DNA from: Methylobacterium sp. AMS5 | Lineage (GTDB): Bacteria > Pseudomonadota > Alphaproteobacteria > Rhizobiales > Beijerinckiaceae | Length of the DNA stretch: 64,000 nucleotides | Direction: 5' to 3' | Assembly: GCF_001542815.1 (NCBI RefSeq) | Contig: NZ_CP006992.1 | Location: 3,291,501 to 3,355,500, forward strand | Part shown: positions 24,391 through 31,532 of the stretch, in pieces | Position numbering within the stretch: position 1 is the stretch's first letter | How the letters are laid out: each line of letters starts with the position of its first letter | Notes under the pieces: generated by a model | Seen by the model: the letters and a program-made list of their open reading frames with translations, nothing else | Database searches by the model: none | Told to the model about the DNA's origin: nothing | Position numbers and translations under genes: made by a program

Positions 24391-24476
24391 TGTGCAGATT
24401 TCGTGAAATATAGCATTCAGAACAGAACCGTGATCTCGAACTGAACGTTTCGGGCCGCCAAGGGGGAGATGCTGCT

Positions 24477-25454
24477 TCAGAAGTGGCTGAACGAGGCGCG
24501 CGCAAAGCCCATCTCGCGCCCGTGCGCATCGTGAAAGCGAGGCGGTCCGTCGCCGGCTTCCACGGTGCCGATCTCGGCAACGGGTATCCCGGCGGCCCGG
24601 GCCTCGGCCAGGAACGCACCCACGGAGCCGGGCGGCACCGCGCAGAGGATCTCGTAATCGTCCCCACCGGTCAGGGCCGTATCGAGTCGGCTGGCATCGC
24701 CGGAGATGGCCGCCTGCGCGGCCGGCGAGAGCGGCACCGCCGGCACGTCGATCCGGGCGGTCAGGCCGATGCCGGCGAACATCTTCGTCAGATCGCCCGC
24801 CAATCCGTCCGAGACGTCCATGGCCGCGCGGGCGTGGCGCCGCAGCACGGGGCCGAGCGCCAGCCGCGGGCGCGGGTGAAGGTAGCGATCGAGGAGCGCA
24901 TCGCGGTGGAGGGGGGCCAGCGCGGGATCGGGCGTCAGCCGCAGGGCGAGGCCCAAAGCCGCGTCGCCGATGGTGCCGCTGACGCAGAGCCGGTCGCCCG
25001 CCTGAGCCGCCTGCCGCCGCAGGATCCCGCCGGCCGGCACCTCGCCGAAGGCGGTCACGCCGATCAGCGCCGGGCCGCCGGAGCGCACGGTGTCACCGCC
25101 CAGCAGCGGGCAGCCATGGGCATGGCTTGCCGCGCCGAGTCCCTCGGCGAAACCCGCGAGCCACGCTTCGGTCCAATCGTCCGGCAGCGCGAGGGTCAGG
25201 AGGAAGCCGCGCGGGCGGGCGCCCTTGGCGGCGAGATCCGACAGGTTTACGCCGAGCGCCTTGTTGGCGATGGAGCCGGGCGGGTCATCGGGGAAGTAAT
25301 GCACGCCGGCCACGATGGCGTCGGCGGTCACCACGAGGTCGTGGCCGGGCGTCGGCGTCAGGCTCGCGGCGTCGTCGCGCAGGCCCTCGGCGCCGGGGCC
25401 GCTGAGCGGCGCGAAGTAGCGCGCGATCAGCGCCTCCTCGCCCGCGCGCGCCAT
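24477..25454 (-). CDS. thiL: Thiamine-monophosphate kinase
   Basis: The 325-residue product phosphorylates thiamine monophosphate to the active pyrophosphate. ThiL/PurM-family motifs are visible: EEALIARYFAPL at the N-terminus, LTPTPGHDLVVTADAIVAGVHYF, NLSDLAAKGARPRGFLLTLALP, PLLGGDTVRSGGP and AAMDVSDGLAGDLTKM, which form the Mg-ATP and substrate sites. The start lies 5 bp after the nusB stop, in the conserved alphaproteobacterial order ribH-nusB-thiL. Confidence 0.95.
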   Translation of the reverse strand: MARAGEEALIARYFAPLSGPGAEGLRDDAASLTPTPGHDLVVTADAIVAGVHYFPDDPPGSIANKALGVNLSDLAAKGARPRGFLLTLALPDDWTEAWLAGFAEGLGAASHAHGCPLLGGDTVRSGGPALIGVTAFGEVPAGGILRRQAAQAGDRLCVSGTIGDAALGLALRLTPDPALAPLHRDALLDRYLHPRPRLALGPVLRRHARAAMDVSDGLAGDLTKMFAGIGLTARIDVPAVPLSPAAQAAISGDASRLDTALTGGDDYEILCAVPPGSVGAFLAEARAAGIPVAEIGTVEAGDGPPRFHDAHGREMGFARASFSHF

Positions 25455-25459
25455 TCCGG

Positions 25460-25981
25460 TCAGCCCTTCTTCGCCGTCGCCGGGCCGGGAGCGGCCGGAA
25501 TGCCGAACTCGGTGGAGCGCACCTCGCGGCCGACCCGGTCGAGCACGGCGTTGACCATGCCCGGCTCGTCGCCGCCGTAGAAGCTGTAGGCGACCTCGAC
25601 ATATTGCGAGATCGCGGCGCGGGCCGGCACGTCGCGGCGGAACATCAGCTCATAGGCGCCCGCCCGCAGGATGGCGCGCAGCACCGCTTCCAGCCGGCGC
25701 AGCGGCCAGCCCTTCGCCAGCGCCGTGTCGAGCTTCGGGTCGATGGCGCGCTGTTCCTCCACGGCACCACGGAGCACGTCGCGGAAGAACGCGATCTCGG
25801 CCGGGGGGTGGACGACACCGTCGACCTCCTGACCGATCCAGAAGGCCTCGAACTCGGCCAGCGCCTCGATCACGCCCTTGTCCGAGATCTCCATCTCGTA
25901 GAGCGCCTGCACCACGGCGAGGCGGGCGCCGGTGCGGGCGTTCGGCTTCGGTTGGGCCGGTGTCGCGGCGGGGTCTGTCAT
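25460..25981 (-). CDS. nusB: Transcription antitermination factor NusB
   Basis: The 173-residue all-helical protein begins with [15 protein letters not shown] and ends with [22 protein letters not shown], both typical of NusB. With NusE (S10) it binds boxA to promote rRNA antitermination. The N-terminal 17 residues are a low-complexity Pro/Ala extension common in alphaproteobacteria. The gene overlaps ribH by 4 bp (ATGA), so the two are translationally coupled. Confidence 0.94.
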
Positions 25982-26511
25982 CGGGCGGGTTCCAGATTGG
26001 CGGCGCGCTTGATGGCGAGGAGGCTCAGGGCCGCCTCCGCTGCACCGCCGCCCTTGTTCATGTCGGAGACCCGGGCGCGGGCGAGCGCCTGCTCCATGGT
26101 CTCCACGGTGAGGATGCCGTTGCCGAGCGGCAGGTGCTCGGCCACGGAAAGGTCCATCAGCGCGCGGGCGCTCTCGCCCGCGACGATGTCGTAGTGGCCG
26201 GTCTCGCCGCGGATGACGCAGCCAAGCGCCACCGCCGCATCGTAGGGGCCGCCGGCCTTGCGGCCGGCATCCATCAGGATCGCGATGGCGGCGGGGATCT
26301 CGAGGGCGCCCGGCACCGTGAACACCCGCGCCTCGGCGCCGACCGCCTCGATCGCCGCGCGGGCACCCGCCAGCAATTCGTCGGCGATGTCGTCGTAGTA
26401 GCGCGCCTCGACCACCAGCACGCGGGTGCCGACGAGGCTTTCGAGGATGCTCTCAGGGCTGTCCTTGGGGCTGTCCTTGGGCGCGTCCGCGTCCCGGCGT
26501 TGGGAGACCAT
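25978..26511 (-). CDS. ribH: 6,7-dimethyl-8-ribityllumazine synthase
   Basis: The 177-residue product condenses ribulose-derived dihydroxybutanone phosphate with the pyrimidine intermediate in riboflavin synthesis. Signatures: [50 protein letters not shown] and [19 protein letters not shown]. The first 25 or so residues are a hydrophilic extension with a repeated KDSP. In related genomes ribE lies directly upstream; here 4.4 kb separates them. Confidence 0.95.
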
Positions 26512-26823
26512 GCGACTGTCGTTCCGGGGCGAGTTGACGAAAGTTCGGGGCGGGCCGGAGGGTTAGCCCAAGTGGCGCGGGCTCCACAAGCGGCACGGGG
26601 CGCGACGGGTGCACGACCGGGGCACATGTTCCGGCCCGGAGAAGCGTCGCCTTTCCGCCGGATCGAAAAGGTTTGATCAATCAAATCAGGCGGAAGTACC
26701 GCCGCCACAACCTGCGATGCCCCTTATTAACCGGACCGAAGTCGATCCCGGCAATAGACTGTCGAACGCAAATTTGCGGGCCCTCGACCATCGATCCCGC
26801 ACTGGAAACGGGAGTTATCCAGC
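26512..26823. other. Divergent intergenic region between ribH and the HAD-UbiA gene
   Basis: About 310 bp between divergent genes, with a less GC-rich patch around 26670-26770. It must contain the ribH-nusB-thiL promoter now that the operon is separated from ribE. I found no FMN riboswitch pattern and no RNA gene. Confidence 0.45.
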
Positions 26824-28350
26824 ATGGCGACGGCGCAGGCGCGAAGGGCAAAGACGGCCCCGGCCCGGACAGAGGACGCGGCCTCGGCACCGCGGCCGGT
26901 GCCGCTGGTGATCGACCTCGACGGCACGCTGCTGCGCACGGACCTTCTCCTGGAAGGAATCATCGCGCTGCTGCGGCGCAACCCGCTGATGCTGCTGGTG
27001 ATGCTGCTGTGGCTGCCGCGGGGACGCGCCTTCTTCAAGCGCCGCATCGCGGAAGGCGCCGTGCTCGACGTCACGTCCTTGCCGGTCAACGCGGCGCTGC
27101 TCGCCCATATCGAGGCGCAGAAGGCGGCGGGCCAGGCGATCGTGCTCGCCACCGCCGCCGACGAGTTGATGGCTCTGCGCGCCCTGAGGCGTTTTCCCGT
27201 CTTCGACCGGGTGGTGGCGAGCGACGGGGTGCGGAACCTCAAGGGGGAGACGAAGGCCGCGCAACTCCGGGCGCTCTACCCGCAGGGCTTCGACTATGCG
27301 GGCGATGCCAGGGCCGACCTTCCGGTCTGGGTCGCGGCACGGCGGGTGATCGTCGTGGGAGCCTCCGGTTCCGTACTCCGCGCGGCGCGGCGGCTCGGCA
27401 AGCCGGTCGAGGAATTTCCCGCCGCCTCGCGTTCGCGCGCACTGCTCAAGGCCCTGCGCCTGCACCAATGGGCCAAGAATGCCCTGGTCTTCGTGCCGCT
27501 CGTCCTCGGCGGCCGGGCCGGGGACGCGTTAGCCTGGGGGAGCGCAGGCCTGGCCTTCCTCGCGCTCGGCCTCGTCGCCTCGGCGAGCTACCTGCTGAAC
27601 GACCTCCTCGACCTCTCCCACGACCGGGCGCACTGGTCGAAGCGCGAGCGCCCCCTGGCGAGCGGCCGGCTTCCCATCGCCACCGGTCTGGCGGCGATGG
27701 TGCTCGGCCTCGTGGGCGGGCTGGCGGTCGCGGCCTGGGCGGGGGCGGCGGTGCTCACCGGCGTGCTCGCCTATCTCGTCCTGACGCTGACCTACTCCGC
27801 ATGGCTCAAGCGGGTGCCGATGCTCGATGCGCTGACGCTCGGGAGCCTGTTCTCGCTGCGCATCGCGGTCGGCGTCGCGGCGGTCGCGGTGGCGTGGTCG
27901 CCCTGGCTCCTGACCTTCTCGATGTTCCTGTTCACCTCGCTGTCCTTCGCCAAGCGCCACACGGAGCTGCGCGGGGCCGCGCGGCGCGGCCAGGCCGGCA
28001 CCATCGCCGGGCGCGGCTATGAGCCGGCGGACGAGCCGGTGGTGCTCGCCTTCGGCGTCGCCTCGGGGCTCGCCAGCGTCGTCATCTTCATCCTGTATCT
28101 CGCCAACGAGGCGTTCCGCCACGCCGTGCTCGCCGCGCCGCTGGCCCTGTGGAGCTTCCCGCTGATCCTCGTCCTGTTCATGAGCCGGATCTGGTTGCTG
28201 GCGGGCCGCGACGCGCTCCACGACGACCCGGTCGCCTTCGCGGTCAAGGACCGCCCGAGCCTCGTGCTCGCGGGTATGGCCGGTCTCGCCTTCGCGGTGG
28301 CGGCCTTCGGCCTGCCGCCCGGCCTCCTCCCAGGAGAGTTCGGGCTGTGA
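26824..28350 (+). CDS. HAD phosphatase-UbiA prenyltransferase fusion (DPPR-synthase-like)
   Basis: The 508-residue protein has two parts. Residues 26-205 are a HAD-type phosphatase: IDLDGTLLRTD with Asp31/Asp33, LATAA, LKGETKA and GDARADLPVW (motif IV). Residues 205-508 are a polytopic UbiA-fold prenyltransferase with LHQWAKNALVFVPLV, the Asp-rich NDLLDLSHDRAHWSKRERP (Asn259 to Arg276) and YSAWLKRVPMLDALTL. These match mycobacterial decaprenyl-phosphate phosphoribosyltransferase (Rv3806c type) better than quinone-synthesis UbiA. Inference: it transfers phosphoribose from PRPP to a polyprenyl phosphate and removes the 5-phosphate. It overlaps the GtrA gene by 1 bp (TGATG). Confidence 0.85.
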   Translation: MATAQARRAKTAPARTEDAASAPRPVPLVIDLDGTLLRTDLLLEGIIALLRRNPLMLLVMLLWLPRGRAFFKRRIAEGAVLDVTSLPVNAALLAHIEAQKAAGQAIVLATAADELMALRALRRFPVFDRVVASDGVRNLKGETKAAQLRALYPQGFDYAGDARADLPVWVAARRVIVVGASGSVLRAARRLGKPVEEFPAASRSRALLKALRLHQWAKNALVFVPLVLGGRAGDALAWGSAGLAFLALGLVASASYLLNDLLDLSHDRAHWSKRERPLASGRLPIATGLAAMVLGLVGGLAVAAWAGAAVLTGVLAYLVLTLTYSAWLKRVPMLDALTLGSLFSLRIAVGVAAVAVAWSPWLLTFSMFLFTSLSFAKRHTELRGAARRGQAGTIAGRGYEPADEPVVLAFGVASGLASVVIFILYLANEAFRHAVLAAPLALWSFPLILVLFMSRIWLLAGRDALHDDPVAFAVKDRPSLVLAGMAGLAFAVAAFGLPPGLLPGEFGL

Positions 28351-28775
28351 TGCGAAGCGAGGTCGTCCGGTTCCTGATCGCGGGCGGCTCGGCGGCGGCG
28401 ATCAACTGGCTCGCGCGGATCCTGCTCTCGTTGGTGATACCGTTCGAGGCGGCCCTGATCGTGGCCTACGGCATCGGCATGGCTGCCGGCTTCTGGCTCT
28501 ACCGCGCCTTCGTGTTCCGGGCGGCCTCGCACGGGTCGCTGCGCGGGCAACTCGCCCTGTTCCTCGCGGTCAACGCCGTCGGCGCGGCCGTGGTCCTCGC
28601 GGTCAGCACGCTGATGATCGACGGCCTGACCGGCCTGCTGCCGGATCTGAGCCCGGCCGTGGCGCAAGCCCTCGGCCACGGCGTCGGCATCGCCGTCGGC
28701 GCCGTGGCGAACTATCTCGGCCACCGGCTTCTCACCTTCGGCGCAACCCTGCGGCCTCAGCCTCAGAGCCGGTAG
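28350..28775 (+). CDS. GtrA-family membrane protein
   Basis: The 141-residue protein has four transmembrane helices (FLIAGGSAAAINWLARILL, ALIVAYGIGMAAGFWLYR, LALFLAVNAVGAAVVLAVS, GVGIAVGAVANYLGHRLLTF), with the family hallmarks at the first and last. GtrA proteins are proposed to flip or anchor polyprenyl-linked sugars; mycobacterial Rv3789, beside the DPPR pathway genes, is one. The coupling to the upstream HAD-UbiA gene (TGATG) supports a shared lipid-linked pentose function. Its last 13 bp overlap the convergent glycosyltransferase gene. Confidence 0.9.
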   Translation: MRSEVVRFLIAGGSAAAINWLARILLSLVIPFEAALIVAYGIGMAAGFWLYRAFVFRAASHGSLRGQLALFLAVNAVGAAVVLAVSTLMIDGLTGLLPDLSPAVAQALGHGVGIAVGAVANYLGHRLLTFGATLRPQPQSR

Positions 28776-29992
28776 AGGGTCAGCAGCGTCACCACGGCAA
28801 GGTTGGCGACGACCCCCCAGGTGACGAGGATCGGCAGGGCGGCGAAGGCCGGCGGGCGTTCACCGCGCACCATCAGCACGATCAGGATCGGCAGCCAGTC
28901 GAGGGCGTAGCGCTGGGTCGCGATCTGCTCGGCGCCGTTCGAGTGGTAGAACAGGGTGATCCCGGCGATGACCGCGATGGTCGCCGCCCCGGCGGCGAAG
29001 ACCCGGTCGAGCCGCGCGTAGAAGGCCAGCAGCAGCCACGGGCTTGCCACGAGGAGCGCCGTGCCGGCCTTGTCGAAGCCGACCAGTTCCGTCAGCCGGG
29101 GGCCGCCGAACTCGAAATGGATCCCCTGCAGGAACAGGTAGAGCGTGTTGAACAGCAGGTAGTCGCGCGAGAACAGGCCGCCCTCGGTGATGCGCCGCCA
29201 GATGAAGCTGTCCTGGCCGGGATTGTGGATGAAGGCGTAGCCGGTCTCGAACGGGCTTCCGAAGCGCGCGGCGTTGTAGGCGCAGTAGACGGCGAGGGCC
29301 GCCGCGACCGGCAGCCCCGCCAGCATCGCGGATTTCGCCACCGAGGCCGGGTTCGCCAGCAGCGGGCGCCCGCGGGGCAGGGCCAGAACCAGCAGGAACA
29401 GCGGATAGAAGATCGCCATCTGCCGGCACAGGAAAGCGAGGCCGACGAACAATCCGGCGAGCGGCAGCGAATTCCGGCAGATCACCGCCCACAGGCTCAA
29501 CGTCATCATCAGGAAGCCGACGGTCTGGGAGAAGAACCAGACGCCGTCCGACCGCAGCGTGACCTGATAGAGCGGGCTGGCTAAGGCGAGCGCGGCAAGC
29601 AGCCACAACGCGTGCCCGCGCTCGACCTCCAGCGCGCGGAAGATGCGGCTCCAGGCGAGCAGGCTCAGGGCCGACAGGCCCAGGCCCAGAAGCACGAAGC
29701 CCTTGAAACCGGGAAAGCCGAACAGGGCGACGAACGGCGTCAGCAGCAGTGCCGGCAGGGGCGGAAAGATGATGTAGGTGCGCCCCTCGAACACGGCGCA
29801 ATCGATCTCGGGGCAGCGCTCGACCCAGAGCCGGCCGTGCAGGAACGCGTCGGCCAGCGCCCCGTGCGAGTTGAAGCCGGCATCGCGCAGCGCGCCCCGT
29901 CCCAGAAGGAGGGCGAGGAGAAGGGCACCGCTCAGTGCGGTCAGCACCGCCAGCACCCTGTCGCGGCGTCCTGTAACCGTCATGGTGGCCAC
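28763..29992 (-). CDS. Polytopic membrane glycosyltransferase-like protein (GT-C fold, GT39-type)
   Basis: The 409-residue product has about ten hydrophobic segments from LTALSGALLLALLL at the N-terminus to ANLAVVTLLTLYRL at the end. Its first large loop is FNSHGALADAFLHGRLWVERC, then IIFPPLPALLLTPFVALFG. This layout is that of GT-C glycosyltransferases that use polyprenyl-phosphate sugars outside the membrane, but I cannot point to the usual acidic pair with certainty. It is convergent with GtrA, overlapping 13 bp. Inference: acceptor-side partner of the HAD-UbiA/GtrA pair. ATGs at 29992 and 29983 are both possible. Confidence 0.75.
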   Translation of the reverse strand: MATMTVTGRRDRVLAVLTALSGALLLALLLGRGALRDAGFNSHGALADAFLHGRLWVERCPEIDCAVFEGRTYIIFPPLPALLLTPFVALFGFPGFKGFVLLGLGLSALSLLAWSRIFRALEVERGHALWLLAALALASPLYQVTLRSDGVWFFSQTVGFLMMTLSLWAVICRNSLPLAGLFVGLAFLCRQMAIFYPLFLLVLALPRGRPLLANPASVAKSAMLAGLPVAAALAVYCAYNAARFGSPFETGYAFIHNPGQDSFIWRRITEGGLFSRDYLLFNTLYLFLQGIHFEFGGPRLTELVGFDKAGTALLVASPWLLLAFYARLDRVFAAGAATIAVIAGITLFYHSNGAEQIATQRYALDWLPILIVLMVRGERPPAFAALPILVTWGVVANLAVVTLLTLYRL

Positions 29993-30276
29993 CGCCCTTT
30001 CACGAAACGAAACCGAATCGACGCGGAAGATTCGATCGGAAGGGTTAAGTCTTCCTCACGAATTGGCCGGCGAGCCTCCTCACGAAAACTTGTCGAGCCG
30101 GAGAGGCATCCTGCGTTCACCCGGTGCGGGCCCCCATCGGCACGATTTCCGGGGCTCACCGTCTCGGGGAAAAGGTTTCTGTCGATTTGGGACGGCCGTG
30201 CATTGCCGATAGCCGGGACCGACGGCAAGTCTAGAGCCGGCTCGCTCACAAAGAGGCGGGCCGAGAGGGGATATTC

Positions 30277-30798
30277 ATGACGATCGGGTCGCCGAAATTC
30301 TTGGCCGGCGCGGCACTCGCCTTCTTTCTGCTGGCCGGCAGCGCCGCCGTTGCCAAGAAGGTCACGCTCGTCCCCGGAGATCGGCCGATCTCCGTCGACA
30401 TCCCGGCCGCGTGGACGGTGACCACGATCGACCGTGGCGTCCAGGCGCGGACCGCGGACGAGGAAATCTACCTCTGGTTCGAGAGCTACAAGCCGGCCCA
30501 GTTCAAGGCCCTGCTCGGCGAGCACAACGCCTACTTCACGGAACAAGGCGTCAAGATCACCGGCGAGGGCCAGTCGAAGGAGGTCGATTTCCCGACCTAC
30601 GCCCTCAAGGTCACCGAATATCCGGCGACCTACGAGGGCAAACCGACGGTGCTGCGCTACCTCTCGGTCGTGCCGAAAGCCGAGAGCCAGCGCCATCTGC
30701 TCGTGAGCTACTGGGCCTCGCCGGAGGGCGACAAGAAGTACGACGCCGAGACGAACCAGATCCTGAACAGTCTCGCCGCCTCCTACGACGGCCGTTAA
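30277..30798 (+). CDS. Secreted hypothetical protein
   Basis: The 173-residue product has a signal peptide (KFLAGAALAFFLLAGSAAVA, cleavage before KKVTL). The mature domain of about 145 residues starts with a beta-rich segment (VTLVPGDRPISVDIPAAWTVTTID) and continues as alternating strands with an amphipathic helix. This fold outline resembles PsbP/Mog1-like or DUF1795-type proteins, but I cannot assign a family. It is predicted periplasmic. A palindromic repeat follows immediately after the stop. Divergent from the GT-C gene with about 285 bp between. Confidence 0.8.
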   Translation: MTIGSPKFLAGAALAFFLLAGSAAVAKKVTLVPGDRPISVDIPAAWTVTTIDRGVQARTADEEIYLWFESYKPAQFKALLGEHNAYFTEQGVKITGEGQSKEVDFPTYALKVTEYPATYEGKPTVLRYLSVVPKAESQRHLLVSYWASPEGDKKYDAETNQILNSLAASYDGR

Positions 30799-30893: not shown

Positions 30894-31532
30894 TTACGCC
30901 GGCAACAACCCGCGCGTCTCGGCGAGGCGCGCGGCGTAGCGGGCCAGCAGATCGACCTCCAGATTGATCCGATCCCCCTCGCGGCGCTCCTCCCAGGTCG
31001 TGACCGAGAGGCTGTGCGGGATCAGCAGCACCGAGAAATCGCTGCCCGAGACCGCGTTGACGGTGAGCGAGGTGCCGTCGAGGCAGATCGAGCCCTTCTC
31101 CGCGATGAAGCCGGCAAGCGCGGCCGGTGCCCGCAGGGTGAAGCGCTCGCTCGCCCCCCAAGGATTGTCCTCGCCCGTCACCGTCTCGCGGGCGAGGATC
31201 TCGGCGATACCGTCGACATGGCCGGTGACGAGGTGGCCGCCGAGTTCGTCGCCGAGCTTGAGCGAGCGTTCGAGGTTGAGCCGCGTGCCCTCGCGCCACG
31301 TGCCCACGGTGGTGCGGGCGATGGTCTCGGCGGCGGCATCGACCGAAAAGCGGCAGCCCGCGCCATGCGGCTCCACCGCGACGGCGGTGAGGCAGGGGCC
31401 GGAGCAGGCGATCGAGGCGCCGAGCGCGATACCGGCAGGATCGTAGGCGCTTTCGATCACGATCCGGCGCAGGCGCTCCGAGCCCTCCACCGAGACGACG
31501 CGGCCGACATCGCTGACGAGTCCGGTGAACAT
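30894..31532 (-). CDS. ribE: Riboflavin synthase alpha subunit
   Basis: The 212-residue product dismutates two lumazine molecules to riboflavin. It starts MFTGLVSDVGRV and has the two tandem beta-barrel repeats expected: ASIACSGPCLTAVAV in the first and GSICLDGTSLTVNAV in the second, with LGDELGGHLVTGHVDG at the junction. Length is normal. It starts 1 bp after the ribD stop, within nrdR-ribD-ribE. The next expected gene, ribH, is displaced 4.4 kb. Confidence 0.95.
   Translation of the reverse strand: MFTGLVSDVGRVVSVEGSERLRRIVIESAYDPAGIALGASIACSGPCLTAVAVEPHGAGCRFSVDAAAETIARTTVGTWREGTRLNLERSLKLGDELGGHLVTGHVDGIAEILARETVTGEDNPWGASERFTLRAPAALAGFIAEKGSICLDGTSLTVNAVSGSDFSVLLIPHSLSVTTWEERREGDRINLEVDLLARYAARLAETRGLLPA

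Follow-up and report, generated by a model that had tools for sequence, protein, structure and literature searches.

A HAD-UbiA fusion, a GtrA protein and a GT-C-fold protein as a predicted pentofuranose-decoration cassette in Methylobacterium sp. AMS5

Three adjoining genes of Methylobacterium sp. AMS5 probably constitute a system for pentofuranose decoration, and we infer that the sugar is ribose and that the acceptor is an envelope glycan. The first gene encodes HAD-UbiA, a fusion protein predicted to be a polyprenyl phosphoribose synthase with its own 5'-phosphatase. By analogy to a relative that converts PRPP and polyprenyl phosphate to polyprenyl-phosphate-ribose, HAD-UbiA would make the ribosyl-lipid donor. 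GtrA may then help to bring the lipid-linked ribose to the periplasmic face, which is the weakest step, and the GT-C-fold enzyme would place ribofuranose on an envelope glycan, as its fold, linkage and co-occurrence suggest. Within the window (the whole 64,000-nucleotide stretch that was analyzed), the features are as follows:

25978-26511, minus strand: ribH, flanking gene
26598..30175, no strand: approximate cassette limits, the stretch missing from relative G045 (blastn)
26824..28350, plus strand: HAD-UbiA fusion, predicted polyprenyl phosphoribose synthase with its own 5'-phosphatase; 508 aa
26902..27423, plus strand: HAD phosphatase part of HAD-UbiA, about residues 27-200, nucleophile Asp31
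27430..28314, plus strand: UbiA-fold phosphoribosyltransferase part of HAD-UbiA, about residues 203-497
28350..28775, plus strand: GtrA, candidate flippase or partner for the lipid-linked pentose; 141 aa, Pfam GtrA_DPMS_TM
28763..28775, no strand: tail-to-tail 13-bp overlap of the GtrA and GT-C genes, identical in 10 of the 22 named loci with both
28763..29992, minus strand: GT-C-fold glycosyltransferase, unassigned family; 409 aa, alternative ATG start at 29983
30894-31532, minus strand: riboflavin synthase gene, flanking gene on the other side

This three-gene arrangement had been described in an earlier note on the same DNA, and all three genes lie where it placed them. The coupling it claimed between the HAD-UbiA and GtrA genes is seen in a TGATG overlap, in which the A of the GtrA start codon at 28350 also belongs to the HAD-UbiA stop, and the GtrA product matches Pfam GtrA_DPMS_TM (58 bits against a cut-off of 26.1, with the frame scanned from 28347). 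It is the sole GtrA match recognized in the genome (5.6 Mb, 4 contigs, rated 100% complete). The polytopic glycosyltransferase that the note set beside them is a 409-aa membrane protein with a predicted GT-C fold. Its reading frame opens at GTG 29992, although a start at ATG 29983 is also likely, as the seven nearest relatives (96-99% identity) have a length of 406 aa. No acceptor glycan locus adjoins the trio, which counts against the decoration reading. A 173-aa protein adjoining the cassette (30277-30798, plus strand) has no Pfam or NCBIfam match at E≤1; it probably lies outside the cassette because its region is kept in G045, a relative without the trio.

HAD-UbiA is a full member of NCBIfam NF006088 (PRK08238, "UbiA family prenyltransferase"), with a score of 638 bits where 351 are required. 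The name specifies no function, and the one given here for HAD-UbiA is one that we infer. Candidate relatives with E≤0.001 numbered 5199 of the 8000 scored, and the closest named one, from Methylorubrum extorquens, is at 95%, which suggests a methylotroph of the Methylorubrum type as host. An N-terminal HAD phosphatase with Asp31/Asp33, as claimed earlier, is supported by the motif DLDGTLL from residue 31 and by a predicted HAD fold, the Pfam HAD score itself being below cut-off. Further motifs are NDLLDLSHDRAH from residue 259 and KRHTEL from residue 377. For the UbiA half, family models, PDB sequences and the predicted fold all give decaprenyl-phosphate phosphoribosyltransferase (DPPR synthase) as the closest characterized UbiA family, in agreement with the earlier claim. 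The three DPPR synthase models, NF008976-NF008978, score 125, 122 and 86 bits, all below their curated cut-offs of 234, 207 and 474; HAD-UbiA is a relative, not a member, of these families. The comparison of DPPR synthases with quinone UbiA that had been suggested as a check came out on the DPPR side, with much lower scores from the models for ubiA (30 bits against a cut-off of 275), heme O synthase (26 against 210) and ChlG (19 against 313).

The residues point the same way. Nine of the 11 mapped PRPP/Mg-site residues of Rv3806c are identical in HAD-UbiA and invariant in 38 of 38 relatives, while Q135 and Y157 of Rv3806c correspond to T321 and F343 and are counted against the assignment. The genome encodes three more UbiA proteins, assigned to heme O, 4-hydroxybenzoate and bacteriochlorophyll; each passes a cut-off of its own, and none of them has K218 or K273. 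An ordinary role of the UbiA half in quinone, heme or chlorophyll prenylation is very improbable. HAD-UbiA does have the general UbiA fold, and some sources label its relatives 4-hydroxybenzoate polyprenyltransferase, but the model scores, the PDB and fold matches, the PRPP/Mg-site residues and the paralogue differences all oppose such a role. Its distribution speaks against such a role as well: HAD-UbiA scores over cut-off in 40 of the 89 genomes from the genus, a patchiness unlike that of a respiratory cofactor gene. Identity as a quinone, heme or BchG prenyltransferase was rejected on the model scores and the paralogue comparison.

The predicted biochemistry has a close published counterpart. 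According to Kelly et al. 2024 (PMC11127046), Citrobacter youngae ORF15, an N-terminal HAD joined to a DPPR-synthase-like UbiA domain, makes farnesyl-phosphate-ribofuranose from PRPP, and its D18A variant yields the 5'-phosphorylated lipid, with a small amount of ribosylated product left. In the same account, a MATE protein is put forward as the flippase, and sugar transfer is the work of a GT-C enzyme (GT136); in the O2 system a single SDR epimerase (ORF13) turns ribose into xylose; and DprE1/E2 homologues accompany arabinose systems, one phage system is mentioned and the strategy is termed widespread. ORF15, as described there, and HAD-UbiA share their domain order, their motifs (N, D, D, D in loop II; R, E in loop IV) and an N-to-R spacing of 119 residues. 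Like the three-component O1/O2 system outlined in that source (ORF15 PPPRS, ORF14 MATE, ORF12 GT136), the trio includes a flippase candidate and a GT-C enzyme, and its donor synthase and GT-C genes adjoin each other. The central prediction of the earlier note thus appears to be right, and for a HAD-UbiA fusion it had already been published. The two systems differ in that the described C. youngae cassette contains a MATE protein, whereas the trio has GtrA instead and no MATE. The C. youngae system is placed in an O-antigen locus, while the trio stands alone beside riboflavin genes and lacks an epimerase. The GT-C protein may also belong to a family other than GT136, as no similarity was detected to a transferase from L095 that is GT136-like by motif only.

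The mycobacterial decaprenyl-phosphate-arabinose pathway (Rv3806c, Rv3807c, DprE1/DprE2, Rv3789 GtrA, Emb/Aft) has in common with the trio a UbiA-type phosphoribosyltransferase, a GtrA protein and the GT-C fold. In contrast, the phosphatase of the trio is fused and of HAD type, and no DprE1 is recognized in this genome. The strain-variable gtrABC cassettes for O-antigen glucosylation in Shigella and Salmonella, described in part by Kelly et al. 2024, likewise combine a lipid-phosphate-sugar synthase with GtrA and a GT-C enzyme. The trio differs in having a UbiA-type synthase predicted to use PRPP rather than GtrB with UDP-glucose, and in its convergent GT-C gene.

Some members of the GT-C protein's family are named "hypothetical protein," and the family profile matched no PDB sequence at E≤1. 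Comparison of the GT-C alignment by hhalign with the L095 transferase, which is GT136-like by its D..EY motif only, gave nothing; GT87 was likewise without similarity to that transferase, and none was detectable between the GT-C protein and GT87. The three proteins had no match in PHROGs at E≤0.001, and none was found in phage records at E≤1e-10. In Yersinia thracica (L093) and Erwinia typographi (L095), HAD-UbiA is followed downstream by a membrane protein of 110-112 aa and then one of 527-535 aa. The larger proteins carry an N-terminal GDGxEY spaced as are residues D31, E34 and Y35 of GT136, and the arrangement is likely an enteric version with another type of flippase.

Linkage was examined in 79 named loci drawn from one HAD-UbiA query, among the matches listed, so that the proportions are not population frequencies. 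GtrA matches occur in 47 of these loci and GT-C matches in 24, some of them several kilobases from HAD-UbiA. All but two of the GT-C loci (22 of 24) also hold GtrA, and the two exceptions are from Bauldia, with GT-C directly behind HAD-UbiA. GtrA and GT-C adjoin HAD-UbiA in several genera with different flanks. DprE1 matches were found in 27 of the 79 loci, including the two Bauldia loci, where it lies 5.7-7 kb away. In a tree of 80 HAD-UbiA proteins, these labels cluster, with 4 changes compared to 18.1 when shuffled (as low in 0 of 200 shuffles, with near-copies contributing). Counted against the reading are three loci in which GT-C lies 1.8-3.4 kb from GtrA (L064-L066), five that have HAD-UbiA and GtrA but not GT-C, and the 30 of 79 listed loci with neither GT-C nor DprE1.

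Co-occurrence was assessed in 149 genomes, 89 of the genus and 60 of the order. HAD-UbiA is over cut-off in 54 of them, and GT-C was found in 21, of which 20 have HAD-UbiA over cut-off (Fisher p 1.6e-9, kinship ignored). The GT-C gene is broken in G066, and G020 holds adjoining fragments of both GT-C and HAD-UbiA. DprE1 scores 338-464 bits in 26 genomes, with the next match at 74; this count is set by the score gap, as none of the 149 reaches the 500-bit cut-off of the model. HAD-UbiA is over cut-off in 25 of these 26, and G125 has a partial 172-bit match at a contig edge beside DprE1. Sorted by partner, the 54 HAD-UbiA genomes comprise 16 with GT-C only, 21 with DprE1 only, 4 with both and 13 with neither. 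The surroundings were examined in 12 of these 13 (all except G073): GtrA lies near HAD-UbiA in seven (eight regions, two of them in G072), and the other five have no GtrA match near HAD-UbiA, which is counted against. Two of five large membrane proteins scanned from those regions are GT87 (L120, L128).

Several further observations concern the relatives of HAD-UbiA. Relatives, all below 60% identity, occur in 78 plasmid records, 36 of them from Rhizobium and 20 predicted to be conjugative. A sequence from Streptomyces sp. AcH 505 (L086) groups among Rhodopseudomonas in the tree and one labeled Leptospira interrogans (P0064) is listed among Bradyrhizobium-like sequences; both are probable contamination or mislabeling. 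Two full HAD-UbiA genes are present in each of G072 and G074, suggesting two separate decoration systems. In four Methylobacterium loci that carry the trio (L043, L044, L045, L047), genes clustering with hpnG and hpnH lie approximately 2-6 kb downstream of HAD-UbiA, with ispH in three; these names were assigned by models in L043 only. This nearness may be accidental or may reflect a connection with ribosyl hopanoids.

The sugar is most likely ribose rather than arabinose, because no DprE1 was recognized in this genome: the best NF053785 match has an E of 1.5e-11, and PF04030 gave no match while the Corynebacterium glutamicum control did. The DprE2 model gave 23 SDR-type matches, the best of them with 94 bits where the cut-off is 250. 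The genome search agrees with the earlier note, which saw no DprE1/DprE2 genes at this place and considered ribose possible, and the mycobacterial arabinose pathway was rejected for this genome on the NF053785 and PF04030 results.

Two alternatives accept the proposed donor but send it elsewhere. In one, an unlinked epimerase other than DprE1/DprE2 converts the donor, and xylofuranose or arabinofuranose is transferred. ORF13 of C. youngae O2 (Kelly et al., PMC11127046) offers a precedent, and SDR-type matches number at least 23 in this genome; against this, the cassette holds no epimerase gene, and the DprE1 and DprE2 searches gave the results above, making this route unlikely. We regard as more improbable still a second alternative, in which HAD-UbiA and GtrA handle a ribosyl lipid while the GT-C enzyme uses another lipid-linked sugar, the genes sharing mobility rather than a pathway, and the ribose serves GT87 or another enzyme. 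HAD-UbiA and GtrA do occur without GT-C in five loci (L035, L041, L046, L048, L050) and in G050, and no similarity of the GT-C protein to GT87 or to the GT136-like protein was detected. However, HAD-UbiA or its fragment is present in 21 of 21 GT-C genomes, and the two genes adjoin in several genera, with different flanks. Ribofuranose transfer by the trio remains our preferred reading.

A second candidate user of the donor lies outside the window. The lone GT87 of this genome sits between recR and def (G000 C1:1622207-1623478; L134:8204-9478). At this site, six relatives (G009, G018, G051, G066, G068, G078; loci L114-L119) carry GT87-DprE1-DprE2, whereas this genome, G005 and G048 carry GT87 without DprE1/DprE2 (recR, def and GT87 were named by models in L117 only). 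HAD-UbiA had no match in the 20 kb examined around the site in the six relatives, and all six carry it elsewhere in the genome. Of the six, G009, G051 and G078 have an intact GT-C and G066 a broken one; none was found in G018, and G068 is not among the 21 matches. This genome and G051 share flanks at 93-94% DNA identity, and protein identity is 100% for def and 97.5% for recR but only 67% for GT87, with no recognizable remnant of the two Dpr genes here. From these alignments, one transferase allele seems to have been exchanged for another, accompanied or not by its epimerases. GT87 is tied to the same donor because G046 and G058 have HAD-UbiA, DprE1 and a relative of GT87 (50-54% identical) together within approximately 4.5 kb. 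The lone GT87 may therefore draw on the donor made by HAD-UbiA, and that of the six relatives, if fed by the same donor, would use arabinose.

We speculate, at somewhat less than an even chance, that methylobacteria use a single ribofuranosyl-lipid donor, which HAD-UbiA makes and GtrA helps to flip, to supply several exchangeable transferases encoded at separate loci. These transferases would be the adjoining unassigned GT-C protein, founding a new ribofuranosyltransferase family, and the recR-def GT87, whose allele with or without DprE1/DprE2 would switch between ribose and arabinose and so diversify the surface glycan while leaving the backbone genes untouched.

The distribution of the cassette is consistent with such variation. 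G045, whose ribH is 94% identical, lacks HAD-UbiA; it aligns to window positions 24474-26597 and 30176-30792 with approximately 210 bp between them, compared to 3.58 kb here (blastn), and the trio is therefore missing there. G050 keeps HAD-UbiA and GtrA and lacks GT-C together with the sequence as far as 30906. A patchy, cassette-like pattern would be expected of a variable surface-polysaccharide decoration, and the presence or absence of genes and the exchange of alleles recall serotype-like variation in such a polysaccharide.

The biochemical core of this system is already known; what is new is that this core is paired with GtrA, that the GT-C protein belongs to an unassigned family and that the epimerases form a separable module. 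In the open-access literature we found no paper on ribofuranose in Methylobacterium lipopolysaccharide and, among the matches listed, nothing on point for UbiA in Methylobacterium extorquens or PRK08238. The reading proposed here would extend to a group of methylotrophs a pathway demonstrated in a single enteric genus, predicts ribofuranose in their envelope glycans and proposes a candidate role for a GT-C family with members labeled "hypothetical protein." Strains with and without DprE1/DprE2 at one locus would provide natural pairs for studying epimerases as a switch of sugar identity.
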